This document shows, in pieces, positions 8,538-12,136 of a stretch of 64,000 bases of DNA. The notes under the pieces were generated by a model. The model had not been told where the DNA came from, did no database searches, and saw nothing but the letters and a program-made list of their open reading frames with translations. The DNA is taken from assembly GCF_001202035.1 (NCBI RefSeq), contig NZ_LGHT01000031.1, positions 248,001 through 312,000 on the forward strand. The letters are read 5' to 3'. The DNA comes from Pseudorhodobacter wandonensis (GTDB taxonomy: Bacteria > Pseudomonadota > Alphaproteobacteria > Rhodobacterales > Rhodobacteraceae). Numbering within the stretch: position 1 is the stretch's first letter; each line of letters opens with the position of its first letter. A program made the position numbers and the translations under genes.

Positions 8538-8690
8538 ACCACGTTAAACGCTTGGGGGTGTTGCCCGCCGCGTTTGCGCCTATATTGCGTGCATACCTCA
8601 ACGCCATTTCTGGCGCGCAATACTGTAAACCGTATGACAAACAATGCGTTGCAAAACCATCCGCACGCGCCTCAACCTAGGGAGACTGCG

Positions 8691-9014
8691 ATGATCCTAT
8701 ATGGAATCTCTACCTGCGACACCTGCAAAAAAGCCCTCAAAGCCCTAGAGGCCGCAGGCCACAGCCCTCAATTCCACGACGTCCGGGCCAACCCGTTGTC
8801 CGAGGCGGAAATTCTGGAATTCGTCACCGACTTTGGTGGCGCAATAATAAACCAGAAATCCACCACATGGCGCGGCGCGTCTGATTGGCTCAAAGCGTCA
8901 GAGCCGGATGAGCAGCTAAAACAGCAACCCACCCTGATGAAGCGCCCTGTCATTCGCAGCGACCAAGGCCTGACCTTGGGCTGGGATGAGGCCGTTCAGG
9001 CCAAATATCTCTGA
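8691..9014 (+). CDS. ArsC/Spx-family thioredoxin-fold protein (YffB-like)
   Basis: A 107-residue protein starting MILYGISTCDTCKKALKAL. It has the CxxC-type N-terminal motif (C9, C12) of the ArsC/Spx/YffB family and the late RPVIRSDQGLTLGW motif. A redox or reductase role is likely, but the length and sequence fit the YffB branch rather than a proven arsenate reductase, and it lies far from the arsenic operons at 43-47 kb. ATG at 8691 is supported by AGGGAG 6 bases upstream; the longer open frame from 8574 has no such site. Confidence 0.85.
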   Translation: MILYGISTCDTCKKALKALEAAGHSPQFHDVRANPLSEAEILEFVTDFGGAIINQKSTTWRGASDWLKASEPDEQLKQQPTLMKRPVIRSDQGLTLGWDEAVQAKYL

Positions 9015-9074: not shown

Positions 9075-9281
9075 TCAGAGAAGCCGCAAATCGCCGGCCG
9101 ATTCTTTGCCGTCGCGGCCAGATTGCATCTCATAGCCAATTTTCTGATTGTCGCTCAGCCCGGTCAAGCCGGCGCGCTCGACGGCTGAAATATGGACAAA
9201 AATGTCTTTTCCGCCGTTATCGGGTGCAATGAAACCATAGCCTTTAGTGCTGTTAAACCACTTTACGGTGCCGGTAGGCAT
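9075..9281 (-). CDS. CspA-family cold-shock protein
   Basis: A 68-residue single cold-shock domain protein. The RNA-binding motifs RNP1 (KGYGFI) and RNP2 (DIFVHIS) are intact, in [20 protein letters not shown] and the following strand. It binds single-stranded RNA/DNA as an RNA chaperone in the cytoplasm. ATG at 9281 has AAGGAG 8 bases upstream. About 150 bases of apparently non-coding leader lie upstream, long enough to hold a thermosensing 5' UTR as in other csp genes, but no fold was established. Confidence 0.95.
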
Positions 9282-9429
9282 GCCGCGTCTCCTTCTTCGA
9301 TTCCCCCGCCAGCGACATGCCGCGGGACTGCGAGATCCGTGCTTTCCCAAGTGCCCGCTGCCCTAAGGTCAGGCTTTGGTTGGGAAACCTCCGATCACAG
9401 TTAAAATCATGCCGAATCGTAGAAGAAAA

Positions 9430-9996
9430 TCAAGATGCTTGTGCAAGACCGGCAATCCTGCGCTGCAACAGCCTGTCCAAAGACAGCAAGCCGCCGCCTT
9501 TTAGAACCAGAATGCTTAACAACAACGCCCATAACAGCCGCTGATCCCAAATCAACGCACCCGAGGCCCGATCAAAAACCGCGCCCAATGTGTCGCCCGA
9601 AACCCCGTGCCCATAGACATCAACGATGCTTTGCACCGTAACAAATCCGATCATCCCCAAGGCCGCAAGTCGCGTGAACAGCCCGATCACAATCAGCAAT
9701 GGCAGCAGAAATTCGGCCAGCGTTCCCGCCACAACGACCAGATAGTGAAGGGCCCCGAACCGGCTGAAATCATAGCCAAAGGCCTCGGTTGCCTGCGGAA
9801 AGATCTGGATATAGGCGCCGTCGGTTGGCATCAAAAAACCGGTCAACCCCGGCCCGATTTTGGTACTGGCCGAGGCCCAAAAATAAAACAATAGCACCGC
9901 AGCAAAAACCAGACGTGCAAGCAGTGGCAGCAGCAAGGTGCCAAGTTCGTCCAGCGCGGCTGCAACATGATTATATTTTGTAATCAAGGTGTTCAT
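9430..9996 (-). CDS. DoxX-family membrane protein of the bufferin operon
   Basis: A 188-residue protein with four hydrophobic segments typical of DoxX, including LLARLVFAAVLLFYFWAS and GTLAEFLLPLLIVIGLFTRL. It is the last of four genes in the operon of precursor, MNIO enzyme, DUF2063 protein and DoxX protein. DoxX proteins recur in such clusters, where a membrane redox or quinone-linked role is suspected; no catalytic motif proves it here. ATG at 9996 overlaps the TGA of the DUF2063 gene (ATGA), so translation is coupled; an ATG two codons upstream is less likely. Confidence 0.85.
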   Translation of the reverse strand: MNTLITKYNHVAAALDELGTLLLPLLARLVFAAVLLFYFWASASTKIGPGLTGFLMPTDGAYIQIFPQATEAFGYDFSRFGALHYLVVVAGTLAEFLLPLLIVIGLFTRLAALGMIGFVTVQSIVDVYGHGVSGDTLGAVFDRASGALIWDQRLLWALLLSILVLKGGGLLSLDRLLQRRIAGLAQAS

Positions 9997-10733
9997 CCGC
10001 AATCCTCATCCAATCCGGTTATCGCGCCGCCCTGTATCAGCAGGCCAAGCAGCGCCGTTATGTCAAAATTTTCCCCCGCCTGTTCAAGCGCTTGTCCAAC
10101 TGTAGTTCCGGCGTGTAGGGCCGCTATGACATCCGCCCCCTGTGGCGGCAAAAGATGTGGCACGGCGTCAAAACCGGGGCGCAGAACCAGCGCCGATTCA
10201 GGTCGCATTTGGGGCGCCGCGCCGCCACTGGTATTGGCCTGCCAGATCGACCAAACCGGATACTTTGACGCAACCCAGCGCAGGGCCGGTGCCAGATGCA
10301 GTCGCGCCGCCATGAATCGTTCCGGCGCCAAGGCAGCCAAAGTTTCGGCCGCAATCGGGGCAGCATCGGCTGCATGATAGGCTTCGCGCAGCGCAAATTC
10401 GAGCCGCGCCACGTCGGGCAAATAGGGCAGATTCGCAAGCGGCGGGAAATCTGCCAAAAAATTAGGCATCTCAGCGCCGTAGAACATCATCAGCCGCGAC
10501 TTCGGCGGATGCTGACGCAAAAACGCGCCCGCAAGCGCCTTGAAATAGGTTTCGCCCAGCAGCTTTTGCAACACGGGAAAGCCTTGCTCCAAGGCCTCGA
10601 TCAAACTGCCCGCGACATTATTGCGATAGACCGAAAAGCGCCGCCCCGCAGGGCGCCCCTCCGCATCTATCAGCCCTGTCGGCACAGCCAGATCGGGGTC
10701 GAGCAGGGCTTGGGTGAACGCCGATTCCTTCAT
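9993..10733 (-). CDS. DUF2063 (HvfC/BufC-type) partner protein
   Basis: A 246-residue cytosolic protein. The N-terminal DUF2063 domain (about residues 6-100) shows [29 protein letters not shown] and [21 protein letters not shown]. Proteins of this type accompany DUF692/MNIO enzymes and are thought to present the precursor peptide to the enzyme. The gene overlaps the end of the MNIO gene by 4 bases and the start of the DoxX gene by 4 bases, as expected for subunits made in fixed ratio. Confidence 0.88.
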
Positions 10734-11578
10734 GCCGCAGGCACCAGAATGCGGGCGGCCCGCGCTGCCTCGGCCGCCAAAACAGGCCAGTCGGGGACAT
10801 CATTGTCCCATTCGATCAGCGTCGGCAGCGGCCCCGCGCGGCCAATCAGCCCGGCATATAACTGCCAAACCGGATCGACCACCTCGCAGCCGTGGCTATC
10901 AATCAGCAAGGGCGCGCCATGGTCATCCATATCGGCAAAATGCCCGCCAAGATGCACCTCTCCGACCAATTCAACAGGAAAATCAGCCAGATACGCCTCG
11001 GCATCAAAATCCAGATTGGTGGCCGAGACATAGACATTATTCACATCAAGCAGCAGCCCGCAGCCGGTGCGCGTGGCCACTTCGCGCAAGAACTCAACCT
11101 CGGCCAGATCGGCATCCTGAAATGCCAGATACGAGGACGGATTCTCCAGCAGCATGCGCCTTCCCAACACCTCTTGCACGCGGTCGATATGATCGGCCAC
11201 CCGTGCCACCGTGGCCGCCGTATAGGGCAGGGGCAACAGATCATTCAGAAACGTGTCATCATGGCTGGACCATGCCAGATGTTCGGAAAAGCTCGCCGGT
11301 TTCAGCCAGTCGCACAAATGCTTCAACCGCGCCAGATGGCCCTCATCCAAGCCACCTTCGCCGCCGATCGAAAGCCCGACACCATGCACCGAAATGGCAA
11401 AACGTTCGGCCAGATGCCGCAACTGCGCCAAAGGCCTGCCGCCATCGCCCATATAGTTTTCGGCGTGAATTTCCAGCCACTCTACCGGTGCCGGATTTTC
11501 CAGAATATCTTTGAAATGCTGGGGCTTATAGCCAACGCCGGGCCGGGCGGGCAAATGCTGTGCGGCGGAATCGAACAT
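10730..11578 (-). CDS. bufB: MNIO (DUF692) multinuclear iron oxidase, BufB type
   Basis: A 282-residue TIM-barrel enzyme of the DUF692 family. Likely iron-ligand motifs are visible: [43 protein letters not shown] and GEVHLGGH. Family members bind two or three iron ions and oxidise cysteine side chains in peptides, for example to oxazolone/thioamide in methanobactin or thiooxazole in bufferins. The substrate here is inferred to be the adjacent Cys-containing precursor. ATG at 11578 has AAAGGAG 7 bases upstream; the longer frame to 11617 would run into the intergenic hairpin. Confidence 0.93.
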
Positions 11579-11599
11579 GCTCGCTCCTTTTGCAAAGAA

Positions 11600-11631
11600 A
11601 AGGGCCCCCCGCCGCATCGGGCAGGGGGCCG
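11600..11631 (-). terminator. Hairpin between precursor and enzyme genes (attenuator)
   Basis: On the minus strand, GGCCCCCT and GGGGGGCC with inner GCC/GGC pairs form a strong stem followed by CTTTTCTTT. It lies between the stop of the precursor gene (11639) and the ribosome-binding site of bufB. As a leaky terminator or a 3' stabiliser it would give more precursor than enzyme mRNA, as is common in RiPP operons. Confidence 0.65.
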
Positions 11632-11638
11632 GTGGTGG

Positions 11639-11929
11639 TTAGCCAGCCATGTCGCGCTCAAGCGGCTCAAGGCTGCCCATGCGGCCTTCGGGCAGTTCCA
11701 TCGTGGTGCATGTGCCGGTTGGAACCAGCGACCAGGCGTTGCCCTGATAGTCAACTTTCGACGTGCCTGCGCAGGTGGTGCCAGGACCGGCCGCGCAATC
11801 ATTCTTGCCAGCCAAAGCGACGCCAAAGCATTTTTCCTTGGCATCCTGTGCCGCAGCAGGCATCGCCGCTGCCGACAACGCCGCCGCCAATGCGCCAGCA
11901 ACAACCAGTGTTTTTGAATTGATAGACAT
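11639..11929 (-). CDS. bufA: Bufferin-type precursor (DUF2282, BufA1-like), secreted Cys-containing RiPP
   Basis: A 96-residue protein with a Sec signal peptide ([20 protein letters not shown], cleavage after AAAQ or near it). A short mature part holds four cysteines in [23 protein letters not shown] and PTGTCTT. This spacing matches the DUF2282 bufferin precursors as I recall them; in Caulobacter such proteins are modified on Cys, exported to the periplasm and bind copper. Here the MNIO enzyme, its DUF2063 partner and a DoxX protein follow in the same operon. AAGGGGAG precedes the ATG by about 5 bases. Metal specificity is inferred from the family. Confidence 0.9.
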
Positions 11930-12085
11930 TTTCTTCTCCCCTTGGGCAATTTCGTTTCATCGCAGTGTCGCGATACAGTAACCCTAGCCTGCCGCCGCAA
12001 TCACAGACCAATAACAGCCGCGTGTCCAACGCGGGCGTGACCTATTGTAACATAGCGGGGCATCTGGCGCAGGGGGAAAAGGCCA

Positions 12086-12114
12086 TAAAAAAAGCACCGG
12101 AACCCCGGCGCTTT
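12086..12114 (-). terminator. Rho-independent terminator of thrS
   Basis: On the minus strand, AAGCGCCGG and CCGGTGCTT pair around a short GGTT loop (one G-T pair) and are followed by a run of T. It lies 22 bases after the thrS stop and insulates thrS from the bufferin operon, whose promoter should lie between here and 11929. Confidence 0.85.
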
Positions 12115-12136
12115 TCTCTGTTTTTCAACGGTTTGG

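Follow-up and report, generated by a model that had tools for sequence, protein, structure and literature searches.

Introduction

The core of a bufferin gene cluster consists of genes for a precursor, an MNIO enzyme, a DUF2063 protein and a DoxX protein (PMC12452194). Caulobacter Buf1 contains Cys-derived thiooxazoles, binds both Cu(I) and Cu(II) and aids growth in copper excess; its central Cys residues are modified and the outer two are joined in a disulfide (PMC12452194), and the 5-thiooxazole has been assigned broadly to MNIO–PME1 systems (PMC12668002). The bufferin 1 operon of Caulobacter vibrioides (CC3254–CC3257, equivalent to CCNA_03363–03366) shares its four families and their order (PMC3511200 Table 1; PMC8224329) with the operon described here, which lies in a stretch of 64,000 nucleotides (the whole of which is referred to as the window; contig NZ_LGHT01000031.1, positions 248,001–312,000) from Pseudorhodobacter wandonensis. 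In Caulobacter, σF controls the operon from a promoter of the form GTAACC-N16-CGAA, and NrsF acts as a negative regulator (PMC3511200; PMC8224329). The sigF-controlled homologous cluster is induced by copper and inactivation of sigF leads to severely impaired growth with copper (PMC8224329); genes for a sigma factor and for NrsF occur in Buf1 clusters (PMC12452194). In contrast, the genome to which the window belongs gave no match to NrsF, and the promoter region of its operon contains a conserved dyad.

Other related systems differ in their regulators or in their products. The gig operons of Cupriavidus metallidurans and Legionella pneumophila have been termed bufferin operons (PMC12452194). 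The Legionella operon, which we liken to that of the window from its published description, contains four genes, DoxX and DUF2063 genes among them as in the window, and an influence of a Legionella-specific regulator and of RpoS has been suggested (PMC5413113). The HvfABCX/oxazolin and captophorin clusters of Haemophilus, Neisseria and Fontimonas likewise combine an MNIO with a DUF2063 partner, often together with DoxX, and are associated with Cys-derived heterocycles and copper binding (PMC12668002; PMC12452194). We found no report in the openly accessible literature on the control of bufferin operons in Rhodobacterales.

Gene content and assignment of the operon

The operon comprises bufA, bufB, bufC and doxX (Table 1), all on the minus strand and within positions 9430–11929 of the window. 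A preliminary description of this DNA had named DUF2282, DUF692, DUF2063 and DoxX genes in this interval without stating the strand; all four are present with intact reading frames, and the ATGA overlaps that it reported among the last three genes can be read at 10730–10733 (bufB/bufC) and 9993–9996 (bufC/doxX). The spacing between bufA and bufB is 60 nt. The genome (3.9 Mb in 45 contigs, 100% complete) contains a single DUF2282 gene and a single MNIO gene, both of them in this operon. The preliminary description had also judged the layout to be of the bufferin type and the motifs of the DUF692 enzyme to be intact, and had proposed profile searches with DUF2282, DUF692 and DUF2063 models; the results below bear out each of these points.

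BufA falls within Pfam DUF2282 (hmmscan E = 2.1e-25, 88.9 bits against a cut-off of 22.4) and matches none of the NCBIfam models. By eye, its N-terminus is short and contains one Lys and a hydrophobic stretch followed by ...PAAAQ, with no Cys before residue 34. It has four Cys residues (Table 1), as do 78 of 79 related precursors (the first copy alone was compared where a locus has two); the precursor of locus L039 has a fifth, located in the signal peptide. Tandem bufA copies precede bufB in three relatives (L038, L040 and L043), and contig 18 of genome G015 has two DUF2282 matches with 0.3 kb between them.

BufB matches Pfam MbnB_TglH_ChrH (PF05114) with 348.8 bits against a cut-off of 25 and passes the cut-off of the NCBIfam equivalog NF050167 (MNIO_BufB, 'MNIO family bufferin maturase') with 374.8 against 310 bits. 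Eight of its residues, His100, Glu145, Asp178, Asn181, His209, Asp227, His229 and Glu256 (numbered from Met1), are common to 3BWW, TglH and MbnB, and His65 is common to 3BWW and TglH, the MbnB alignment beginning downstream of this residue. All nine positions are invariant in 62 aligned rows, and we take them, from published structures, to be the iron ligands. That BufB might instead be an MNIO of the HvfB/oxazolin or methanobactin type, with a different product, is hardly credible. The catalytic positions of BufB do align with those of MbnB in the methanobactin system MbnABC, and the HvfB and MbnB models both match BufB, but their scores (237.7 and 50.3 bits) are far below the respective cut-offs of 360 and 325; likewise, neither the HvfC (46.4 against 142 bits) nor the HvfX (30.9 against 80 bits) equivalog reaches its cut-off in the window operon. 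The precursors tell the same way: those of the HvfABCX/oxazolin and captophorin clusters contain repeated EGKCG motifs and MbnA is described as having no Sec signal (PMC12452194), whereas the precursor in the window is a DUF2282 protein with an apparently Sec-type N-terminus and without EGKCG repeats.

BufC matches DUF2063 over residues 4–93 (91.7 against 27.2 bits). A phmmer search against PDB sequences returned a single weak and unrelated match (E = 0.074) and a fold search was therefore needed. The AlphaFold2 model of BufC (mean predicted local distance difference test score, pLDDT, of 95.5) matched TglI (8hci, E = 7.4e-07; 8hi7, E = 1.3e-06) and NGO1945 (3dee, E = 1.2e-04), so that its predicted fold matches those of known MNIO partners. 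The DoxX protein, modeled with a pLDDT of 91.8, belongs to a set of 46 aligned proteins of which 45, including this one, match the DoxX profile at E ≤ 0.001; a DoxX gene is a frequent though not an obligatory part of bufferin 1 operons. No Cys position is invariant, or nearly so, in the DoxX alignment, in which 51 of 58 rows are free of Cys, and a role in thiol–disulfide exchange is therefore unlikely, judging from the sequence. BufC also has no conserved Cys among its aligned relatives.

The related loci compared here are the best 80 of 583 confirmed loci, a set that leans to close relatives. The order bufA–bufB–bufC–doxX is kept in 77 of the 80; the other three are interrupted by contig ends (L042 and L053 have no DoxX and L069 has no BufA). 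The operon in the window is thus a bufferin operon, of a class already described and surveyed (PMC12452194). It is ordinary for its class and no new mechanism is needed to account for it. The control region is the part of the operon that the published work considered here leaves unexplained.

A conserved dyad upstream of bufA

Sites related to the 29 bp dyad on the 5′ side of bufA (Table 1) follow the pattern TNACG-N4-CGTG-N3-CACG-N4-CGTGA. In a gap-free alignment of 54 nonredundant sites the strongest features are the dyad and a TA resembling that of a −10 element, and complementarity at the dyad center is 60%, compared with a median of 25% at other centers. The TA occupies one fixed offset in 39 of the 62 sites and is shifted by a single base in another 13, against 0–8 at the other tested offsets. 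The simplest reading of this arrangement is a putative operator abutting a promoter, from which an activator and a repressor are not distinguishable. Genome G006, which is labeled as belonging to the genus of the window, has a dyad identical in its letters to that of the P. ferrugineus locus L033, in support of an assignment to Pseudorhodobacter.

The distribution of the dyad was assessed with a score model that was trained on the same 80-locus sequences, with a threshold of 18 chosen after the scores had been seen. Scores were at least 18 in 61 of the 71 relatives without adjoining SigF and NrsF genes, 12–18 in five and lower in five, four of these last five carrying GTAAT-N15-CGAA. None of the eight relatives with adjoining SigF–NrsF reached 18, one of them scoring 14.4 (Fisher P = 1.7e-6 for the association, not corrected for relatedness); some upstream contigs are short, so that an adjoining SigF could go unseen. 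An independent set comprised 29 loci besides that of the window, with 25 upstream regions outside the training set, 20 from the same family and five from other families. A score of at least 18 was obtained for 12 of the 20 same-family loci, with two more at 17.6 and 13.1, whereas the five from other families all scored 5.2 or less. Random stretches of 190 bases reached 18 in 22 of 580 cases for the independent loci (some of these stretches may include a real site) and in 18 of 1600 for the 80 loci. The dyad is therefore common in the family but not universal, and the five loci from elsewhere did not show it.

A strict dyad pattern, loosened to admit the site in the window, still fits no more than 31 of the 80 upstream regions and thus undercounts. 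In the genome of the window it occurs once, 5′ of bufA. It was found in six of 21 genomes (none with the reversed control) and in 43 of 149 genomes of the family, with 44 distinct sites (three sites with the reversed control); genomes with the strict site usually have one each. In 34 of the 36 strict-dyad loci that were fetched, the site lies 60–116 bp 5′ of the estimated bufA start. Inspection covered 34 of the 44 sites. At L118 (genome G095, 1501–1529) the strict dyad is located in the bufA–bufB gap. At L119, which has no bufA, it is flanked by an aldehyde-dehydrogenase-like frame on one side and by the start of a further frame on the other, so that a second target is conceivable. Genome G103 has two strict dyads, one 5′ of bufA and one within an SDR-like frame. 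The three inspected sites away from the 5′ side of bufA gave no lead to a dyad-binding regulator.

It is distinctly unlikely that the dyad is a mere by-product of the shared ancestry of the intergenic region, with no operator function. The loci are indeed related, the synteny of the region with the preceding thrS is conserved and the statistics given here are uncorrected for relatedness. However, common descent of the whole region would have to be squared with an alignment in which the dyad and the −10-like TA stand out most strongly, with the symmetry at the dyad center, with the lack of the dyad where sigF–nrsF adjoins the operon and with its retention where thrS is at least 0.9 kb away (L064, L072, L076 and L083).

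Relation to the σF–NrsF module

A search for NrsF found no match in the genome of the window, with a positive Caulobacter control. The GTAACC-N16-CGAA promoter was sought in 80 upstream regions, those of 79 relatives and of the window. The best site in the window has two mismatches, and sites of this quality were observed in 21 of the 80 regions against 19.6 expected from shuffled sequences. A GTATCG-N16-CGAA sequence noticed by eye 22–47 nt 5′ of bufA was considered as a σF promoter and rejected, its two mismatches being at chance level and NrsF being absent; the automated scan picked another two-mismatch σF-type site, 211 nt upstream. GTAACA, which many relatives carry some 225 bp upstream (with an N16 match at −226 in L104), was also set aside, being the end of thrS (CTG TAA CAT...) and no control site.

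Eight relatives have GTAAC[AG]-N16-CGAA at 74–100 bp 5′ of bufA, and these are exactly the relatives in which SigF and NrsF genes adjoin the operon in the examined stretch. All eight (L035, L052, L054, L062, L068, L070, L087 and L096) combine a divergent sigF–nrsF pair 5′ of bufA and a σF-type promoter with the lack of a dyad. Among the 20 same-family loci of the independent set, those of the three NrsF-containing genomes (G018, G024 and G034) have dyad scores of at most 5.0 and a σF-type sequence. NrsF was found in 22 of the 149 family genomes (21 of them above the curated cut-off), all 22 outside the group of 43 with a strict dyad; the hypergeometric chance of such a lack of overlap is 2.7e-4, not corrected for relatedness. 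A further arrangement, GTAAT-N15-CGAA about 100–120 bp 5′ of bufA with neither a dyad nor a neighboring SigF–NrsF, occurs in L042, L051, L074 and L094 (L051 and L074 are labeled Tabrizicola) and is possibly a third kind of control.

A conserved DNA site, rather than the sigma factor used by Caulobacter, may therefore control the bufferin operon in this lineage. For the more specific proposal, in which a new and nearly bufferin-dedicated transcription factor acting on a double-dyad operator governs many operons of the family, that of the window included, and swaps with the σF–NrsF module, we regard the chances as evenly balanced.

Hairpin between bufA and bufB

The gap between bufA and bufB contains a GC-rich hairpin (Table 1). 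Stems with at least eight GC pairs occur within 60 nt 3′ of bufA in 64 of the 80 loci; the corresponding figures are 25 of 1600 for random 60-mers drawn from these loci and none of 80 for the stretches directly 5′ of bufA. Folding of 77 bufA–bufB gaps gave a mean z of −2.9, with 55 under −2. At least four T residues in the 10 nt past the stem were found in 26 of the 80 loci, against 150 of 1600 controls; over the region as a whole, terminator-like sites are fewer than in shuffled sequences (three against a mean of 5.3). From these sequence features, the hairpin is perhaps terminator-like in some loci and a stabilizer in others. Terminators, hairpins, operators and promoters go unmentioned in the main text of PMC12452194, as judged by a word search.

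Proposed function and mechanism

Gene content, family membership, conserved catalytic positions, the predicted fold of BufC and the conservation of the operon and of the positions of dyad and hairpin are shown by the present analysis. We consider the following reading very likely: that this is the bufferin 1 biosynthetic operon of a Pseudorhodobacter-like member of the Rhodobacterales, that mature BufA binds excess copper in the periplasm and that control is linked to the dyad. By analogy, thiooxazole chemistry, copper binding and copper tolerance are carried over from the literature on relatives.

In the proposed sequence of events, BufA would be synthesized with a Sec signal peptide. The cytosolic BufB–BufC pair, an MNIO oxidase and its DUF2063/RRE (RiPP recognition element) partner, probably turns Cys45 and Cys53 into 5-thiooxazoles by iron-dependent oxidation. 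BufA would be exported after modification, with a probable disulfide between Cys34 and Cys74, and the mature protein would then bind excess periplasmic copper. The following points, on the regulator and its direction of action, on the transcription start, on attenuation and on the role of DoxX, are inferred. Transcription probably starts about 40–60 nt 5′ of bufA, from the promoter abutting the dyad, and a putative dyad-binding regulator would stand in for the σF–NrsF of Caulobacter and of some relatives. The hairpin 3′ of bufA probably leads to more bufA than bufBC–doxX message and so to more precursor than enzyme. DoxX would be a small helical protein and is unlikely to act as a thiol–disulfide agent.

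Several observations weigh against parts of this proposal. The dyad in the window is degenerate, with 14 of 17 core positions (the mean over 62 sites is 15.4 and the minimum 13) and nine of 15 complementary pairs. Three bufferin genomes of the family (G016, G022 and G023), with loci among the 20 of the independent set, lack both a clear dyad and NrsF, and the two modules therefore do not account for every operon. Among the eight neighbors of the operon in the window, no regulator gene was seen to be shared in the neighborhood of related loci. The hairpin could be an mRNA stabilizer rather than an attenuator. The DoxX protein scores 22.4 bits against PF07681, slightly under the cut-off of 23.6 (E = 1.9e-4), and a fold search with its model against the PDB gave no match (best E = 4.6). 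Finally, neither expression nor mass-spectrometry nor metal data were found for P. wandonensis.

Decay of the operon in this genome, or a lack of its expression, would account for the degeneracy of its dyad and would fit the patchy distribution of bufferin operons across the class, in which many genomes have no DUF2282 match (23 of 61 genomes, with that of the window counted among the 61: eight of 37 from the family and 15 of 24 from other families), showing that the operon is not retained everywhere. The four intact frames and the retention of the BufB residues invariant across 62 rows make this very unlikely, as does a precursor identity of 80–83% in the three closest named Pseudorhodobacter loci (L032–L034), although this falls to 67–72% in metagenome-assembled genomes labeled Pseudorhodobacter (L046, L065 and L105).

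A protective role that is directed mainly at another stress (gold, silver, chromium, cadmium or oxidative/sulfur stress), with copper secondary, is unlikely but carries some weight. In Caulobacter the operon reacts to chromium and cadmium (PMC3511200), in Legionella the gig operon reacts to gold as well as to copper (PMC5413113), and DoxX has been tied to oxidative or sulfur stress by the authors of PMC12452194. On the other hand, Caulobacter Buf1 itself binds copper (PMC12452194), and loss of sigF affects copper tolerance, with the sensitivity to chromate and cadmium reported as similar (PMC8224329). Buffering of excess copper by mature BufA is the function that we prefer.

Feature coordinates and gene neighborhood

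The closest named matches of BufB are those of Pseudorhodobacter sp. E13 and P. ferrugineus (86% identity), followed by P. antarcticus (81%) and then by other Rhodobacterales. Near the operon, thrS is found in 76 of the 80 loci, and a cold-shock gene and an ArsC-family gene are each found in 69; in the window the last two follow the operon at 9075–9350 and 8574–9014, respectively. The features of the operon and its control region are collected in Table 1.

Table 1. Features of the bufferin operon and its flanking sequences; positions are those of the window.
Feature	Position	Strand	Basis
bufA, bufferin 1 precursor (DUF2282)	11639..11929	minus	96 aa; DUF2282 profile, Sec-type N-terminus by eye, Cys 34/45/53/74
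bufB, MNIO (DUF692) maturase	10730..11578 (Met at 11578, stop at 10730)	minus	282 aa; NF050167, PF05114
bufC, DUF2063 partner protein (PME type 1)	9993..10733	minus	246 aa; DUF2063 profile, AlphaFold2 fold match
doxX, DoxX-family protein	9430..9996 (ATG at 9996, stop at 9430)	minus	188 aa; mostly helical, probably membrane
29 bp dyad TCACG-CCCG-CGTT-GGA-CACG-CGGC-TGTTA, putative operator	12012..12040	minus	motif search, conservation in relatives
TTGGTC, possible −35 element adjoining dyad	12006..12011	minus	weak: TGG at offset in 36/62 sites, TTGG in 10/62
TAGGGT, possible −10 element, fixed spacing from dyad	11981..11986	minus	TA at offset in 39/62 sites
GC-rich hairpin followed by T-rich stretch in bufA–bufB gap; putative attenuator or 3′-end stabilizer	11603..11630	minus	11 pairs, 10 GC
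Inverted repeat with T run, probable thrS terminator parting thrS from bufA	12090..12115	minus	sequence

Implications

The absence of conserved Cys residues in DoxX and BufC limits the roles that DoxX may have, and the hairpin 3′ of bufA suggests a means of setting an excess of precursor over enzyme. The conserved and almost operon-specific dyad provides a direct handle for finding another regulator of bufferin production.

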